Below, piece by piece: positions 10,684 to 31,308 of a stretch of DNA of 64,000 bases; the stretch's first letter is position 1, and each line of letters starts with the position of its first letter. This DNA is from Synechococcus sp. PCC 7335 (GTDB lineage Bacteria > Cyanobacteriota > Cyanobacteriia > Phormidesmidales > Phormidesmidaceae). The stretch spans positions 256,477 through 320,476 of the forward strand of contig NZ_DS989904.1 in NCBI RefSeq assembly GCF_000155595.1. The letters run 5' to 3'. The translations under genes were made by a program, and so were the position numbers. The notes beneath the pieces were generated by a model. The model was not told the DNA's origin and searched no databases. It worked only from the letters and a program-made list of their open reading frames with translations.

Positions 10684-11673
10684 TTAATCATTCTGTTGAA
10701 TCTGTGTATTGCCGAACCCTGTGAGCGATCGCGTCAAATCCCATAGTAGCCGCCGCTCATCTTGCAACTGCAGCACGACGCTAGTCATCGGAGTGATTTC
10801 TCCAACTGTCTGACAAACAACCTGATTAGAAGCAAATAGTCTCTTAACTGCTGCAACATTGTTTGGCGGTACGCTTAATAGAAATCCATAGCTAGGAAAG
10901 CTCGTCAGCCACTTAGTCCATGGCACACCAACCGGGCGCGGCACTCTGTTCAAATCTAGCAAAGCCCCACAGCCAGAAGCCTCGCACAGCATCAACAACG
11001 TGCCCGCCAAACCACCCATACTAATGTCTTTACCGGCGCTGCATAGATTGGCATTAGCTAGATCGGTTAACTTTGATAGGTGTGATCGCAACATAGCCGG
11101 TTCTGCCATAGTCGCTGCGTTCCAAAAGGGATAGTCGCCGTAATAGACCCCTGCCATATTGATCACCATCATCAGCGTATCCCCCGGACTAGCCTCGAAG
11201 CTGGTGATCAGCTGACTTGCCCGTCCTAATACCGCTACGGCCAAACCGCTGTACTCGCTATGACAGTTTGTATGTCCACCTACGATGGGAACGCCGTAGG
11301 CAGTTGCGGCTGCTCGCATACCTGCCCATATCTGTTGAGTTTCTTCTTGCGAACGACTCCATAGCGCATCTACAACAGCGATCGCGCTTCCTCCCATAGC
11401 CGCGATATCCGATAGATTAACCATCACCGCACACCACCCGGCAAACCACGGATCGCTCAAAACTAGCTGCGGCCAGATGCCTTCTGCTGCTAGCAGCAAA
11501 TAGCCGTCCCCATCGAAAATCGCTGCGCAATCATCCCCTAGTCGAATCTGTGAGCCATCTACGCCAGGTACATACTGTCCGATTGCAGTGGCTGCCGTTT
11601 GAATATCTTGTTTATTCAAGATGCTGGCAGCCGACTGAAGCAAATGAACAATCTGCGAAAGCGTTTGCTGCAT
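10684..11673 (-). CDS. AIR-synthase-related protein of the Nit1C cluster (Sll0787 family)
   Basis: A 329-residue protein with the two-domain PurM/SelD/ThiL architecture, in which an N-terminal half with acidic metal/ATP-binding residues (QIRLGDDCAAIFDGDGYLLLA) precedes the C-terminal domain (SAGKDISMGGLAGTLLMLCE). These enzymes bind ATP and usually phosphorylate or cyclise small molecules; the substrate of this subfamily is unknown. It ends the five-gene nit operon, 6 bases after the acetyltransferase gene, and so is probably translationally linked to it. The family occurs almost only in Nit1C clusters, which is the main basis for the assignment. Confidence 0.88.
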   Translation of the reverse strand: MQQTLSQIVHLLQSAASILNKQDIQTAATAIGQYVPGVDGSQIRLGDDCAAIFDGDGYLLLAAEGIWPQLVLSDPWFAGWCAVMVNLSDIAAMGGSAIAVVDALWSRSQEETQQIWAGMRAAATAYGVPIVGGHTNCHSEYSGLAVAVLGRASQLITSFEASPGDTLMMVINMAGVYYGDYPFWNAATMAEPAMLRSHLSKLTDLANANLCSAGKDISMGGLAGTLLMLCEASGCGALLDLNRVPRPVGVPWTKWLTSFPSYGFLLSVPPNNVAAVKRLFASNQVVCQTVGEITPMTSVVLQLQDERRLLWDLTRSLTGFGNTQIQQND

Positions 11674-11679
11674 AAGAGA

Positions 11680-12192
11680 CTACGCTACGTTTAGGATCGG
11701 TAAGGCAGGGCGTGGCTGGTCGGTGGGAGGGTAATAGTCTAAATCGGCTTGCATGAGGTGATGAGGGCGCTCTAGGATTTCTAGCGTTTCTAGGCTCTCC
11801 CAGTGTAGGCGAGTAAAGAAACGAACGTTCTGCAACTGAACCGTGGCCAGAAAGCGATCGCAACCCCAGGTATTCGCGGTCGTGACTGCTTTTTGGATTA
11901 ATCCTTTACCAATGCGACCAACCCGGCGAAAGTCAGGATGCACGCCGAGTCGCCCACCGTACCAAAGGCGAGGAGACTGCTCATAGATTCTGACAACGCC
12001 GACGATTTGGTTGGGTTTGTCCTCTTCATGGGCGATCGCCACAATGGGATAAGACTTCTGATCGATAGCATCGCGATCTGTTTGTTCAAACAGTTCTTGT
12101 TCTTTACAGAAAATCTGCGATCGTAGGTCAAAGTAACTATCTATCTCGTCGGTTGATAGCGCTAATTCAAAGCTGTAAGTTCGTTTAGCCAC
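11680..12192 (-). CDS. GNAT-family N-acetyltransferase of the Nit1C cluster (Sll0786/MSMEG_0567 family)
   Basis: A 170-residue acetyltransferase. The acetyl-CoA-binding core is seen in GVHPDFRRVGRIGKGLIQKA (about residues 81-100), which matches the R/Q-x-x-G-x-G/A motif A of GNAT enzymes. A fitting motif-B region follows (FFTRLHWESLETLEI). The N-terminal DEIDSYFDLRSQIFCKEQ stretch is typical of GNAT proteins acting on small molecules. The acceptor is unknown. It sits between the radical SAM gene (125 bases, containing a minisatellite) and the AIR-synthase-like gene (6 bases). Confidence 0.85.
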   Translation of the reverse strand: MAKRTYSFELALSTDEIDSYFDLRSQIFCKEQELFEQTDRDAIDQKSYPIVAIAHEEDKPNQIVGVVRIYEQSPRLWYGGRLGVHPDFRRVGRIGKGLIQKAVTTANTWGCDRFLATVQLQNVRFFTRLHWESLETLEILERPHHLMQADLDYYPPTDQPRPALPILNVA

Positions 12193-12281: not shown

Positions 12282-12341
12282 GCCAGACTATTCGAAGCCA
12301 GACCATTCAAAGCCAGACTACTCAAAGTTAGACTGCTCAAA
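12282..12341. repeat. Four-copy 15-base tandem repeat across the radical SAM stop codon
   Basis: Units GCCAGACTATTCGAA, GCCAGACCATTCAAA, GCCAGACTACTCAAA and GTTAGACTGCTCAAA follow one another. The last copies encode the C-terminal residues SNFEQSNFE of the radical SAM protein on the minus strand. The TAG stop lies inside the third unit, and the remaining units are in the spacer. The length is a multiple of three, so expansion keeps the frame. Confidence 0.85.
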
Positions 12342-13469
12342 GTTAGAGAGAGCCGAGCAGGCCCCACATTTCGCACACCCTGCTTTCATCTCGCTAGATA
12401 ATAGATTCGCATCTCTCAGCATCTGTGCAATGCGCTGATAAAGCTCAAACATTAGTCCACTATCCGGTGGAGGCGTTTGTGCCAAGGGCGTGCCTACAAT
12501 CGGAACAAACGGCACTACAAATGGATAGACGCCTAACTGAATCAGTCGCTCACTCACCGAAAGCAAAGTATCCTTACTATCACCTAATCCTGCAAGCAAG
12601 TAAGTACTTACCTGTCCTCGACCAAAGACTTTGACAGCCGCCGAGAATGCTTCAAAATAGTAGCTAAGTGGCACCTTTGCCTTTCCGGGCATGATTCTTG
12701 CTCGAACTGTCGGATCTGCGGCTTCTAGATGCATTCCTAAGCTATCTATCCCAGCCGAGTGCATTCGATCAAACCATCGAAAATCATCGGGCGGCTCGCA
12801 CTGTGCCTGAATAGGCAAAGAGACTTTTGCTTTGATGGCTTGAGCACAGTCGGTTAGATAGGCGGCACCTCTATCTGTTGTATTTGGGGTGCCTGTCGTC
12901 ATAATCATGTGCTCTACCTGGTCAAGACGAACAGCAGCTTCAGCAACTTCGGCTAGTTGCTCAGGCGTTTTCTTAGCAATCGTGCGATCGCTTTCTAAAG
13001 ACTGACCAATCGCACAAAACTGACAGGCCGTTTTACGATTCTCGTATCGAATGCAGGCTTGCAAAACTGTTGTTGCTAGTACATTGTTGCTATGCAACAG
13101 CGCGATCTTCGAGTAGGGGATGCCATCAGCGGTGTGCAAACCGTAAAACTTAGGCTGACGTGGAAAGTCAAGCGGACTAATCACTTGATTGTTCTTTGCT
13201 AAATAAGACTGACCGGTTGAGGAATCAATATCTACTCGGTAGGGAGACTGGGCTGCACCATCAGTGTAAACAGGCACCATTACAGTTGTCCGGCCAATCG
13301 TTACCGCTTTATGATCAGAAGGACCCGCACCGCCTTTTCGTCCGGCTGCCCCTATCTCAGATGTCGCTAGGTTGAGCCCTCTAGATTGCAGGTCAGTAAT
13401 GATATGTTGTGCGTTTAATGGCTCAGCGGATAGCAGACTACTTCGCATGTAGGGAACTGATTTGGACAT
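12318..13469 (-). CDS. Radical SAM protein of the Nit1C cluster (Sll0785/MSMEG_0568 family)
   Basis: A 383-residue enzyme expected to bind a 4Fe-4S cluster and S-adenosylmethionine. The cluster Cys are C139, C149 and C152, spaced C-x9-C-x2-C rather than the classical C-x3-C-x2-C; to my knowledge this wider spacing is normal for this family. A TIM-barrel-like core follows (MIMTTGTPNTTDRGAAYLT; PIQAQCEPPDDFRWFD). A second Cys group, C365/C368/C371 (CAKCGAC), near the C-terminus could hold an auxiliary cluster. The last residues come from a 15-base tandem repeat. It is the third gene of the nit operon, 67 bases after the nitrilase gene. Its reaction is unknown. Confidence 0.9.
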   Translation of the reverse strand: MSKSVPYMRSSLLSAEPLNAQHIITDLQSRGLNLATSEIGAAGRKGGAGPSDHKAVTIGRTTVMVPVYTDGAAQSPYRVDIDSSTGQSYLAKNNQVISPLDFPRQPKFYGLHTADGIPYSKIALLHSNNVLATTVLQACIRYENRKTACQFCAIGQSLESDRTIAKKTPEQLAEVAEAAVRLDQVEHMIMTTGTPNTTDRGAAYLTDCAQAIKAKVSLPIQAQCEPPDDFRWFDRMHSAGIDSLGMHLEAADPTVRARIMPGKAKVPLSYYFEAFSAAVKVFGRGQVSTYLLAGLGDSKDTLLSVSERLIQLGVYPFVVPFVPIVGTPLAQTPPPDSGLMFELYQRIAQMLRDANLLSSEMKAGCAKCGACSALSNFEQSNFE

Positions 13470-13536: not shown

Positions 13537-14631
13537 TTAGTCGTTGCTCTTTGAAGAGAGCCGCTCTAGGCGACGGGTAGAAGAATCGGAACTATTTGAA
13601 GAAATAGGGATTCCAACAGAATAGTCAGCGTCTTCTTGAAGACCTTCAAGTCCTTCTACTGCAGAAGAGTCTAAAGGCTGCGAGTCCCTCTTCTCATGAG
13701 TAACCTGGTTGATAGCTGAGTAGGCAGATGTATTGATCTTGAGCTGGAGCAGATCGGGTCTCGCATAGTGACCCACAGAATCCATCATACGCTTACGTTT
13801 GGTGATCAAAGAGAAATCTAGGCTAGCGATCGCCATGCCCTCTCCTTCTCGAATCGGCTCTGCTAAATGGACCCCTTCCGGACTAATAATCGTCGTATAG
13901 CACCCACCTTGCAGTACCTTTTGTAACGCCTCAGTCGGCGCAATCTGTTCTACCTGCGCAGGCGATAGCCAGCCCGTCGAATTCACAACAAAACAGCCTG
14001 ACTCTAGAGCGTGATGACGCATTGTCACTTCAGTTTGTTCACTGAAAATATCACCCACCATTGAGCCAGGAAACTGGCCGCAGTGAATTTGTTCATGCCC
14101 TGTCATCAGACTATAGCGGGCAAGCGGATTGTAATGCTCCCAACAGGCCAACGTACCCAATCGTCCAACTGCTGTCTCACACACCTGCAACCCAGACCCA
14201 TCGCCCTGTCCCCATACCATCCGTTCGTGATAGGTCGGTGTTAGCTTCCGGCGCTTCAACACACACTCACCTGTTGCGTCGAAAACGAGCTGAGTGTTGT
14301 AAAGTGAGCCCTTATCCCTTTCGTTCACGCCTAGAACAATTACCATCTGATGTACGCGAGCTGCCTGACCAACTGCGTCAGTCACAGGACCCGGGACAAC
14401 TACTGCCTCCTCATAGAGTCTCATATGTTCTTTGCCCATCAGCACGGGCGGCAGCACAAAAGAGAAGTAAGGATAGTAAGGGATAAAGGTCTCAGGAAAA
14501 ACAATCAGATCTACGCCTTCTTTGGCAGCTTCACCAATCGCCTTGAGCACTTTTTCTACCGTACCCGACTGACTATGTAACACAGGTGAAAGCTGTACGG
14601 CGGCAGCTTTTACTGTTTTAGAGTAATCCAT
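13537..14631 (-). CDS. Nitrilase of the Nit1C cluster (Sll0784 family)
   Basis: A 364-residue carbon-nitrogen hydrolase that would convert a nitrile to the acid and ammonia. The catalytic triad is visible: Glu47 in VFPETFIP, Lys129 in [11 protein letters not shown] and Cys163 in [10 protein letters not shown]. Length and motifs fit true nitrilases rather than amidases. A Ser/Glu-rich tail of about 60 residues follows the fold. In other bacteria, Nit1C nitrilases have been linked to growth on cyanide or simple nitriles as nitrogen source; the physiological substrate here is not known. It is the second gene of the operon, with the Sll0783-family gene 105 bases upstream. Confidence 0.94.
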
Positions 14632-14736: not shown

Positions 14737-15219
14737 CTACATCGTCCAAGTATCTAATATAAACGCACCTTCTTTACGATGCATGAGTACGATATCTAAA
14801 ACATCTTTGGGGTTAATGGGCGTAATGCCAGGAATCAAAGAAGGCTCACCGTGCCCGTACAATGCCTGCAGCGCGAACCGACAGGCATAGACCTTAGCCC
14901 CATCTGCAATCACCTTTTCAACCCGATTGTTCATGGCCATATGTCCAGGGAAGGCCTCATCCCCCAACTTAGGAAAGCCGCGCTGTACACCTAGCGTTAC
15001 CCCAGGCCCGTACAACAATACAGAAGTCTCGAATCCTTTGCTAATCAGACGGCTAACTTGCAACAGATTCACTAGTCCAATAGAACCTTCAAACGCAACC
15101 GTATGAAAGGTTACTAGTGCCTTTTCGCCAGGTTCTGCCTGAACATCAGGAAATACTTTCTCTTCATAATCTACAAAAAAGTCACCACTCTGATGCGCTG
15201 GCGTTGTTACAGCTGGCAT
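14737..15219 (-). CDS. Sll0783/MSMEG_0572-family protein, first gene of the nit operon
   Basis: A 160-residue protein of the family that opens Nit1C clusters. The ATG at 15219 has GGGAG 9 bases upstream and lies about 22 bases after the predicted transcription start. The fold appears DsrE-like (alternating beta strands and helices: [50 protein letters not shown]). The Synechocystis homologue Sll0783 is known as a nitrogen-starvation-induced protein needed for normal polyhydroxybutyrate accumulation; its biochemical role is unresolved. A perfect NtcA-type promoter precedes it here. Confidence 0.9.
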
Positions 15220-15247
15220 ATGTCATTACTCCCAAATATCTGTCCAC

Positions 15248-15289
15248 ACCGTAAGTGGTCGAAGCACCTTTTCCAGTATCTATTGCTAC
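15248..15289 (-). promoter_or_regulatory. NtcA-activated promoter of the nit cluster
   Basis: On the minus strand GTAGCAATAGATAC (GTA-N8-TAC, 15289-15276) is followed by exactly 22 bases and then TACGGT (TAN3T, 15253-15248). This is the textbook class II NtcA promoter of cyanobacteria, centred near -41.5. Transcription would start near 15241, giving a leader of about 22 bases before the Sll0783-family ATG. Confidence 0.8.
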
Positions 15290-15563
15290 AGATAGATAGA
15301 GTCTGACTATTGAGACAGGACAAACTACTTCAAGATAGTCGCTTACGACTTATTGAAGACATCAGCCTGCACGAAAAGACAGGTAATTCTTCAAAGCGAC
15401 ACTGTTAAAAGAGTGAGGCTTTTCGATTCTGTAACGTCTGATACAAGGCTATTCTAAAGGTCTTTCTATGGTTGATAAATAGTCTTCAGTGAAATAATCT
15501 TTTCTGCTTCTATGGCATCTGTTTTGAGGTGCTTGTTCTCACACAGCGTTTGCCTAACTGCTT
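15290..15563. other. Rest of the divergent nit intergenic region
   Basis: This non-coding stretch lies between the NtcA promoter and the flavoprotein gene. I see no -10 box at the right distance from the NtcA box in the rightward direction and no clear sigma-70 promoter, so expression of the flavoprotein gene is unexplained. Confidence 0.45.
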
Positions 15564-16880
15564 ATGAGCTTATCAACGACTACGCACTATCCAGTTGTTA
15601 TTGTTGGCGGTGGCCAAGCAGGGCTATCTGTCAGCTACTGCCTAAAGCAGCGAGGCATTGAAAATATCATCTTTGAGAAGCATAGCGTTGCTCATTCTTG
15701 GGAAGCTAAGCGATGGGATTCTTTCTGTCTAGTTACGCCTAATTGGCAGTGCGTACTACCAGGGTATGCGTATTCAGGTGACGACCCTGATGGCTTCATG
15801 GGAAAGCGTAAGATTGTTCAATATGTTCAAGATTATGCCCAGTTTTTTGAAGCTAACATTAGAGAAGGGGTTGCGGTAGAGAAAGTTGAGGAAGAACCCA
15901 GCAATGCTGTTTTCAAGGTAACGACCTCGGCAGGAATATATACAGCTGATCAGGTTGTCGTTGCGACAGGTGGATATCATATTCCTAAGATTCCGACTAT
16001 AAGTGAGGCTTTACCTGAAAGTGTTTTACAGCTTCATTCTTCAGCATATAAGAAGCCAGCGGATCTACCGGCAGGAGATGTGCTAGTCGTAGGCACGGGT
16101 CAGTCGGGATGTCAGATTGCAGAAGATCTGCATCTAGCGGGTAGGCAGGTACATCTGTGTGTTGGTGGAGCACCGCGATCGCCCCGGCAATATAGAGGTA
16201 AAGATGTCGTCGAGTGGCTAGATCAGCTAGGCTACTACGACATTACTGTAGATGAACACCCGCAAAAGGAAGCCGTTCGGAAAAAGACAAATCACTATGT
16301 CACAGGGCGTGGCGGGGGTAGAGAGATCGATCTGCGGCAGTTTGCAACAGAAGGAATGCGACTCTACGGCAAACTGAAATCTATTGAGGGAACTCGGCTG
16401 ACTTTAAAAGACGATCTAAAAAAGAATCTTGATCAAGCAGATGAAGTAGCCGAAAGTATTAAAAGAACCATCGATCAGTACATAGAGAAGAACAACATAG
16501 AAGCTGTGGTTGATCCTCCCTATGAACCCGTGTGGCAACCGAATGACACACCGACCTTGATCGATCTTGAAGCCGCTGGCATCAATACCGTCATTTGGGC
16601 AACCGGCTATCATATGGATTTTAGCTGGATAGAGATTCCTGCGTTTGATGGGAAAGGCTACCCGACGCATCAGCGGGGTGTAACGACAGTAGAGGGGCTG
16701 TATTTTATTGGACTGCCCTGGCTGTACACCTGGGGGTCGGGGCGTTTTTCTGGGGTAGCTCACGATGCCGAGCACCTTGCTGACTGTATCGAACACTGCA
16801 TTGAGCTTAGACATCGTGGATTAAAACTCTCACAACCGGGTCGTTATGAGGCAATTAATGAAGTGGCGATTGGATCATAG
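15564..16880 (+). CDS. FAD-dependent oxidoreductase of the Nit1C cluster (MSMEG_0569 family)
   Basis: A 438-residue flavoprotein monooxygenase-like enzyme. The FAD-binding Rossmann motif is VVIVGGGQAGLSVSYCL (residues 10-26). A second dinucleotide-binding motif, VLVVGTGQSGCQIAEDL, near residue 175 probably binds NAD(P)H, and the ATG-type motif is seen in VVATGGYHIPKIP and WATGYHMDF. This arrangement resembles YUCCA/CzcO-like flavin monooxygenases. The family is characteristic of Nit1C clusters, where the substrate is unproven. It is transcribed away from the nit operon and converges on the LuxR-type gene, 47 bases from it. Confidence 0.9.
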   Translation: MSLSTTTHYPVVIVGGGQAGLSVSYCLKQRGIENIIFEKHSVAHSWEAKRWDSFCLVTPNWQCVLPGYAYSGDDPDGFMGKRKIVQYVQDYAQFFEANIREGVAVEKVEEEPSNAVFKVTTSAGIYTADQVVVATGGYHIPKIPTISEALPESVLQLHSSAYKKPADLPAGDVLVVGTGQSGCQIAEDLHLAGRQVHLCVGGAPRSPRQYRGKDVVEWLDQLGYYDITVDEHPQKEAVRKKTNHYVTGRGGGREIDLRQFATEGMRLYGKLKSIEGTRLTLKDDLKKNLDQADEVAESIKRTIDQYIEKNNIEAVVDPPYEPVWQPNDTPTLIDLEAAGINTVIWATGYHMDFSWIEIPAFDGKGYPTHQRGVTTVEGLYFIGLPWLYTWGSGRFSGVAHDAEHLADCIEHCIELRHRGLKLSQPGRYEAINEVAIGS

Positions 16881-16927: not shown

Positions 16928-18214
16928 CTATAGCCAGCCTTGTTTGGTAGCCCTGAAAACGGCCTGGGTTCGAGTTCTAACGCCTAGCTTTCCCAACATG
17001 TTTCTGGTGTGAAACTTGACAGTGCGCTCACTGATAAATAGCTGTTTGGAGATTTCGCGATCGCGCAACCCCTGAGCTAACAACATAATCACCTCCTGCT
17101 CTCTAGCAGACAAAGGCGACTCCTTCGACAGCGGTTGAGGTGAGGAATTATGTTGAGGTGAGGAATTATTTAGAGTAGACACCTTCAAAGGCGCAGCCTG
17201 CGCAAACGCCTGTCCAAACGCCTGTTCAAACGATAGTTCAGCAAACCGTTCTGCGGACTGCTTTGAGCGTGGTATTTGCCATCGTACCTCTGCTACCGTT
17301 CTATCGTGACCGATCTGAGTTCGTACCCTTCCCCCCAAGCGTTCAATTTCAATAGAAAGCGCTCTAAGTTCTCGACTCAAAAGAATTAAGGGCTGGTTGT
17401 TCTGTTCAATCACATCACCACTGGCTTCAACTGACAGCATTGCCTCTAGAAAGACACTCTCACTTTCATAAACCAAACGACAATACTGGCAAGTTTGTTG
17501 ATTGAGATGTCTGACAACTAGAAGCAGTACCTGACTAATTTCGGGTTCTAGCGGATGTTCCACCCCTAATAGGCTCAGCCTTTGCGGCCCCAGGATTGCT
17601 GCTATTTGTTCTGATAGATAAACAGAGGGCAGCAGTCTTTGAGACTGTTCATGAGGCTGCATTAATCGCATCGCCTCTTGATGATTGAGTGCACTAGCTA
17701 GGGTACCTGCAACCGATAGACTCATTATCTGAAATACCTCTAGTAATTCAGGTGCCATTACGTTGTGACTAAAAATAGCAAGTACGCCAATTGCCTGCTG
17801 CTTGGCGATCAGTGGCAGTCCCGCAAATCCTTGAATTCTGTTTTTGATCGCCCATTCTCTATCCTTCACCCAATCTTCTTCAGAAAGCGCGTTGCTCAAA
17901 AATGGAATGCAGTGCTGGGCGATTTTTCCAACTTTAAAAGCACCCATAGGGACCTGAGCGAATGAGCCATCTAACCGGGTATACAGTCCAGAAGAGGCAA
18001 CTAGCCGTAAAGCCTTGCGATTATCTTCAACTAGCCAAATCCTAGCAAAGGCACAGTCAAAGATTTCAATCAGGCCATCTGTTGTGCAAGCGGCGATCGC
18101 CTCTGCATCTAGCCATCCGGTAAAGCGATTTACCAGCTCGCCGCATCGCTTGAGATCGAACAGCAACCTAGACGCATCCAAATTTTGACGGGATGCAGTA
18201 TCAGTCACAGGCAC
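16928..18214 (-). CDS. GAF-LuxR family transcriptional regulator
   Basis: A 428-residue regulator with a GTG start. The N-terminal half (about residues 25-190) has a GAF-like sensory region (IFDCAFARIWLVEDNRKALRLVA; GFAGLPLIAKQQAIGVLAIF). The C-terminal 65 residues are a LuxR/FixJ helix-turn-helix (LSAREQEVIMLLAQGLRDRE; ISERTVKFHTRNMLGKLGV). An in-frame 18-base duplication at 17134-17169 repeats the linker residues QHNSSP just before the HTH. The signal is unknown. It borders the nit cluster and converges with the flavoprotein gene, so control of that cluster is a reasonable guess, not a demonstration. Confidence 0.85.
   Translation of the reverse strand: MPVTDTASRQNLDASRLLFDLKRCGELVNRFTGWLDAEAIAACTTDGLIEIFDCAFARIWLVEDNRKALRLVASSGLYTRLDGSFAQVPMGAFKVGKIAQHCIPFLSNALSEEDWVKDREWAIKNRIQGFAGLPLIAKQQAIGVLAIFSHNVMAPELLEVFQIMSLSVAGTLASALNHQEAMRLMQPHEQSQRLLPSVYLSEQIAAILGPQRLSLLGVEHPLEPEISQVLLLVVRHLNQQTCQYCRLVYESESVFLEAMLSVEASGDVIEQNNQPLILLSRELRALSIEIERLGGRVRTQIGHDRTVAEVRWQIPRSKQSAERFAELSFEQAFGQAFAQAAPLKVSTLNNSSPQHNSSPQPLSKESPLSAREQEVIMLLAQGLRDREISKQLFISERTVKFHTRNMLGKLGVRTRTQAVFRATKQGWL
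17134..17169. repeat. In-frame two-copy 18-base repeat in the LuxR gene linker
   Basis: GTTGAGGTGAGGAATTAT is repeated perfectly and duplicates six residues in the linker between the sensory region and the HTH domain. Confidence 0.75.
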
Positions 18215-31041: not shown

Positions 31042-31308
31042 ATGAGTACCGAAAACTACCTAAACCATCCAAACTTTGGCCTACTGTTTAGAGTTTGCAT
31101 AGCTGGTGAGGGACAAGAGCTATTTGCGACACTATATGCCCATCGGCTGTTTTTTATCGTGAGAAACGATAGGAGTGGACTATCATTCGAGCCGATTGGC
31201 CGAGTTGAGTCAAAGCAAATAATTGAGCAGCGATTACGGCTTATTCGTCGTACGGGCCATCAGACAGAATACGAGCACCTACAAAAAACATATAAGCAGA
31301 CTTTCTAA
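31042..31308 (+). CDS. pipX: PipX, PII-interacting co-activator of NtcA
   Basis: An 88-residue protein with the full PipX fold: an N-terminal Tudor-like (KOW) half (NYLNHPNFGLLFRVC; QELFATLYAHRLFFIV) and two C-terminal helices (RVESKQIIEQRLRLIRR; EYEHLQKTYKQTF). In cyanobacteria PipX binds NtcA with 2-oxoglutarate and boosts NtcA-dependent transcription under nitrogen limitation, or is sequestered by PII at low 2-oxoglutarate. pipY starts 2 bases after its stop, so the two are co-translated. This pipX-pipY linkage is conserved in cyanobacteria. Confidence 0.97.
   Translation: MSTENYLNHPNFGLLFRVCIAGEGQELFATLYAHRLFFIVRNDRSGLSFEPIGRVESKQIIEQRLRLIRRTGHQTEYEHLQKTYKQTF

Follow-up and report, generated by a model that had tools for sequence, protein, structure and literature searches.

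The nit genes of Synechococcus sp. PCC 7335

The window analyzed here is a stretch of 64,000 nucleotides of the Synechococcus sp. PCC 7335 genome, in which nitB, nitC, nitD, nitE, nitF, and nitH are found together. Open reading frames were assigned with NCBIfam profiles, and all six nit genes score above the curated cutoffs:

10684 to 11673, minus strand: nitF, sll0787-family AIR synthase-like protein, the last nit gene here (TIGR04049)
11680 to 12192, minus strand: nitE, Sll0786-family N-acetyltransferase (TIGR04045)
12318 to 13469, minus strand: nitD, MSMEG_0568-family radical SAM protein (TIGR04043)
13537 to 14631, minus strand: nitC, Nit6803-family nitrilase (TIGR04048)
14737 to 15219, minus strand: nitB, Sll0783/MSMEG_0572 family, first gene of the operon (TIGR04044, E = 1e-82)
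15564 to 16880, plus strand: nitH, MSMEG_0569-family flavin-dependent oxidoreductase, divergent from nitB (TIGR04046, E = 4e-201)

The seventh gene, nitG (TIGR04042, which we take to be the ssl1464 family), was not found in the window, making this a split variant of the Nit1C cluster. It lies at G000:C1:2217924, ∼1.95 Mb away from the other nit genes, directly behind a gene for an MSMEG_0565-family glycosyltransferase (TIGR04047) in a mini-locus spanning approximately G000:C1:2216727 to 2218190. An earlier, sequence-only reading of this DNA had placed the Nit1C operon behind a single promoter. That description fits nitBCDEF, which are all present on the minus strand, but not nitG, and we claim Nit1C membership only for the conserved nitBCDEF/nitH part. 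The expectation that the displaced nitG would retain an NtcA site was ruled out, as no GTA-N8-TAC was found near nitG or its glycosyltransferase neighbor. The regulator gene nearest to the cluster is an open reading frame for a GAF and LuxR-type protein (16928 to 18214, minus strand), convergent with nitH.

Two predicted outward-pointing promoters in the nitB-nitH intergenic region

An NtcA-activated class II promoter is defined by a GTA-N8-TAC palindrome centered near -41.5 and followed after 22 to 23 nt by a TAN3T -10 box (PMC3898017). A pattern scan for GTA-N8-TAC-N22-TAN3T matched the minus strand in front of nitB at 15248 to 15289, with the sequence GTAGCAATAGATAC TGGAAAAGGTGCTTCGACCACT TACGGT, in agreement with the sequence-only reading. 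The palindrome (15289 to 15276) is perfect, and exactly 22 nt separate it from the -10 box (15253 to 15248). The ribosome site and ATG that had been placed just downstream were read directly as GGGAG at 15233 to 15229 and ATG at 15219 to 15217. A second full 42-bp pattern, absent from that reading, spans 15431 to 15472 on the plus strand and points to nitH. The two share the 344 bp that separate nitB from nitH, facing outward to the divergent genes:

15229 to 15233, minus strand: GGGAG, probable ribosome-binding site located 9 nt upstream of the nitB ATG, read directly
15248 to 15253, minus strand: -10 box TACGGT, 22 nt past the palindrome, a spacing conserved at 22 to 23 nt
15276 to 15289, minus strand: NtcA palindrome GTAGCAATAGATAC, from pattern scan and conservation, centered at -41.5 of the predicted nitB start
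15431 to 15444, plus strand: second NtcA palindrome GTAACGTCTGATAC, from pattern scan, centered at -41.5 of the predicted nitH start
15467 to 15472, plus strand: -10 box TATGGT, 22 nt past the second palindrome

Setting each -10 box at -12 to -7 predicts that nitB transcription would start near 15241, with the palindrome at the canonical position for NtcA activation, and that nitH transcription would start near 15479, 85 nt upstream of its ATG (15564), which has no obvious ribosome-binding site. All features of a class II promoter that sequence can reveal are thus present, as first proposed, although that account was incomplete in noting only one of two mirrored promoters and in not seeing that nitG lies outside the cluster.

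Frequency of the pattern in the window and genome

The bare palindrome is a poor guide. GTA-N8-TAC occurs 23 times in the window, more often than the 9.2 copies that dinucleotide shuffles predict or the 16.5 predicted by base composition, and one copy (15101 to 15114) falls within the nitB coding sequence. Because of this overrepresentation it was rejected as evidence. The full 42-bp pattern occurs three times in the window against a shuffle mean of 0.26. Genome-wide it occurs 34 times in 5.97 Mb compared to 19 times in a control read backward, so that about half of the genomic matches may be due to chance and a lone match would carry only modest weight. Of the three matches in the window, two sit in the single nitB-nitH intergenic region. 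The third, at 31046 to 31087, overlaps the beginning of the pipX coding region (from 31048) and was not taken as support. Elsewhere in the genome, the full pattern precedes glnN (glutamine synthetase III), nirA (ferredoxin-nitrite reductase), and genes for a formamidase/acetamidase-family protein, an 8-oxoguanine deaminase, and a related amidohydrolase. The chance argument made previously overrated the palindrome itself, while its other element, the promoter geometry, combined with conservation across species, constitutes in our judgment strong evidence, far beyond chance, for the predicted promoters.

Conservation across cyanobacteria

Among 57 distinct nitB upstream regions from nonpicocyanobacterial genomes, which are related sequences whose counts are not independent events, 47 contain a perfect palindrome, compared to 4 in a reversed-text control. 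The TAN3T box follows after 22 nt in 20 and after 23 nt in 19, with any other spacing seen at most twice, and the median identity of the 150-bp nitB upstream regions to that of the window is ∼52%. A position weight matrix was built from nitH promoters alone. It detects the site in front of nitB in the window, does so at 34 of 46 further named cyanobacterial loci, and finds none in 13 proteobacterial nitB upstream regions. Four of the 46 loci (L139, L152, L197, and L199) have no recognizable site before nitB, or before nitH where this was tested. Upstream regions of ftsZ served as a negative control, with the palindrome and -10 box in 0 of 27 and no match at P ≤ 0.01, and glnA served as a positive control, with a site in 12 of 19.

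The nitH side is conserved as well. Its own palindrome and -10 box precede nitH in 14 of 15 genomes, and these include nitH genes that diverge from nitB, that precede it co-directionally, and that lie unlinked on another contig. At seven loci where nitH lies directly upstream of a nitB without a site, six have the site before nitH. One contig filed as Tatlockia sp. (a metagenome-assembled genome, L166) has a perfect NtcA promoter in front of its nitB; it is probably a cyanobacterial contaminant and was set aside from the counts.

NtcA and its partners in this genome

One protein in the genome exceeds the NtcA profile cutoff. It scores 390 bits against the Anabaena NtcA of solved structure, with an identical helix-turn-helix segment and an intact recognition helix. 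Four further, weaker matches to the NtcA-family profile are CRP-like proteins. The genome encodes one PipX and three PII-family proteins. The gene for the NtcA coactivator PipX (PF12058; 31046 to 31305) lies within the window, ∼15 kb from Nit1C, and is followed by a YggS/PipY-like open reading frame. No glutamine synthetase above the type I GlnA cutoff was found in this 95% complete assembly (best score, 343.7 versus 429 bits). A type III enzyme gene, glnN, in the region of G000:C1:738661, stands behind a perfect NtcA promoter, and glnN may encode the main glutamine synthetase of this genome.

Picocyanobacteria and Proteobacteria

No perfect site with a -10 box was found before nitB in 20 picocyanobacterial loci (Synechococcus, Cyanobium, and Prochlorococcus). 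Loss of the site was dropped as an explanation after the nitH-trained matrix and a comparison of GTG with GTA forms revealed degenerate sites. The matrix finds a nitB site in 12 of 19 picocyanobacterial loci at P < 0.02, where fewer than one would be expected by chance. GTG-N8-TAC, a form spotted by eye before it was counted, occurs at -82 to -102 of nitH in 10 of 12 genomes of a picocyanobacterial-type family (f20) that was equated with the named picocyanobacteria indirectly, partly from gene order. It is found before ftsZ in 0 of these 12 genomes, and glnA in this family often carries the GTG form too. The picocyanobacterial site thus seems to be degenerate rather than lost.

In Proteobacteria, elements resembling the sigma54 -24/-12 sequence TGGCAC-N5-TTGCA precede nitB at about 10 of 13 loci (L148 to L191), a count made without a shuffled control, mostly at -64 to -92. 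We consider it an evenly balanced proposition that Nit1C was put under nitrogen control separately in each lineage: by NtcA for nitB and nitH in most cyanobacteria, by degenerate NtcA sites (GTG-N8-TAC and GT-N10-AC) in picocyanobacteria, and by sigma54 in Proteobacteria. If so, the enzyme set would have been selected as a nitrogen-scavenging or nitrogen stress module and not for detoxification alone, and the weaker picocyanobacterial sites would raise the induction threshold or lower output, a testable prediction for those organisms.

Proposed regulation of nitB and nitH

The mirrored sequence architecture, its conservation, and the genes for NtcA, PipX, and PII are direct observations. From them we infer NtcA binding, activation, the positions of the transcription starts, and a response to nitrogen, with high confidence that the nitB-nitH region contains two back-to-back NtcA-activated class II promoters that would be switched on in nitrogen shortage. 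In the mechanism we propose, nitrogen shortage would raise 2-oxoglutarate, and NtcA loaded with this metabolite, aided by PipX freed from PII, would bind each palindrome. Standing in for a -35 box at -41.5, NtcA would recruit RNA polymerase to the TACGGT and TATGGT boxes and so activate nitBCDEF on one side and nitH on the opposite side, while ammonium would turn both transcripts off. Because both NtcA sites are kept across distant cyanobacteria, the Nit1C cluster here is very probably a nitrogen starvation gene set. The sll0783-ssl1464 operon of Synechocystis is repressed by ammonium (PMC10094980), and Sll0783 increases in nitrogen-starved cells (PMC3901256), as the sequence-only reading had said of Sll0783 homologues. 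Use of nitrile or cyanide nitrogen by the cluster is known from other bacteria (PMC9716671, PMC10119275).

The alternative that survives best is that NtcA binds but is permissive or minor and that nitB and nitH are governed chiefly by a second signal, for example through the sensing of cyanide or nitriles. The cluster is reported to be cyanide inducible elsewhere (PMC9716671, PMC10119275), the Pseudomonas Nit1C has its own sigma54-type regulator gene, nitA (PMC11049912), and Sll0783 protein is present before starvation in Synechocystis (PMC3901256). Against this, no nitA-like regulator gene was seen beside the cluster, the LuxR-type open reading frame convergent with nitH being the nearest, and we judge a dominant second input to be unlikely. 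It is far less probable that another CRP-family regulator reads the sites. The four weaker profile matches offer candidates, but GTA-N8-TAC is the NtcA consensus (PMC3898017), a single protein passes the NtcA cutoff, and this element also stands before glnN and nirA in the present genome and, in relatives, before glnA. Least credible of all is a random, functionless occurrence of the palindromes and -10 boxes, which the abundance of bare palindromes and the 19 control matches might invite but which is opposed by two outward-pointing matches within 344 bp, by fixed-spacing conservation before both genes in dozens of distantly related cyanobacteria, and by absence from the ftsZ and proteobacterial controls.

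Returning to paired NtcA promoters as the preferred reading, the retention of the pair irrespective of gene order suggests joint expression of nitB-F and nitH in nitrogen shortage, as parts of one pathway. Nit1C includes proteins of still unsettled chemistry, and a nitrogen step-down with and without ammonium is a clear condition under which to seek the substrate and product of the cluster in cyanobacteria.

Comparison with known systems

The predicted promoter is a typical, well-formed example of an established class, and the nitrogen regulation of the cluster that it precedes was known beforehand; the comparative rewiring between lineages is the mildly new part. Neither a mirrored, order-independent promoter pair nor a change of regulator type between lineages was found described in the literature searched.

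The canonical class II promoters of glnA, nirA, urtA, and ntcB (PMC3898017) have the same GTA-N8-TAC, 22- to 23-nt spacing to TAN3T, and position near -41.5. In contrast to these, the promoters predicted here form a back-to-back pair that would serve two divergent transcripts. The Nit1C operon of Synechocystis 6803, sll0783-ssl1464, is made up of gene families common to both organisms and is ammonium repressed (PMC10094980) and induced by nitrogen starvation (PMC3901256). It differs in that nitG of Synechococcus sp. PCC 7335 has left the cluster for a position beside a glycosyltransferase gene. The proteobacterial Nit1C clusters, such as those of Pseudomonas CECT 5344, Rhizobium, and Methylopila, consist of orthologous genes, and their nitB is likewise preceded by a promoter type often used in nitrogen control. 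Unlike the cyanobacterial cluster, they have sigma54 -24/-12-like elements and no NtcA site before nitB, with NitA as the regulator in Pseudomonas.
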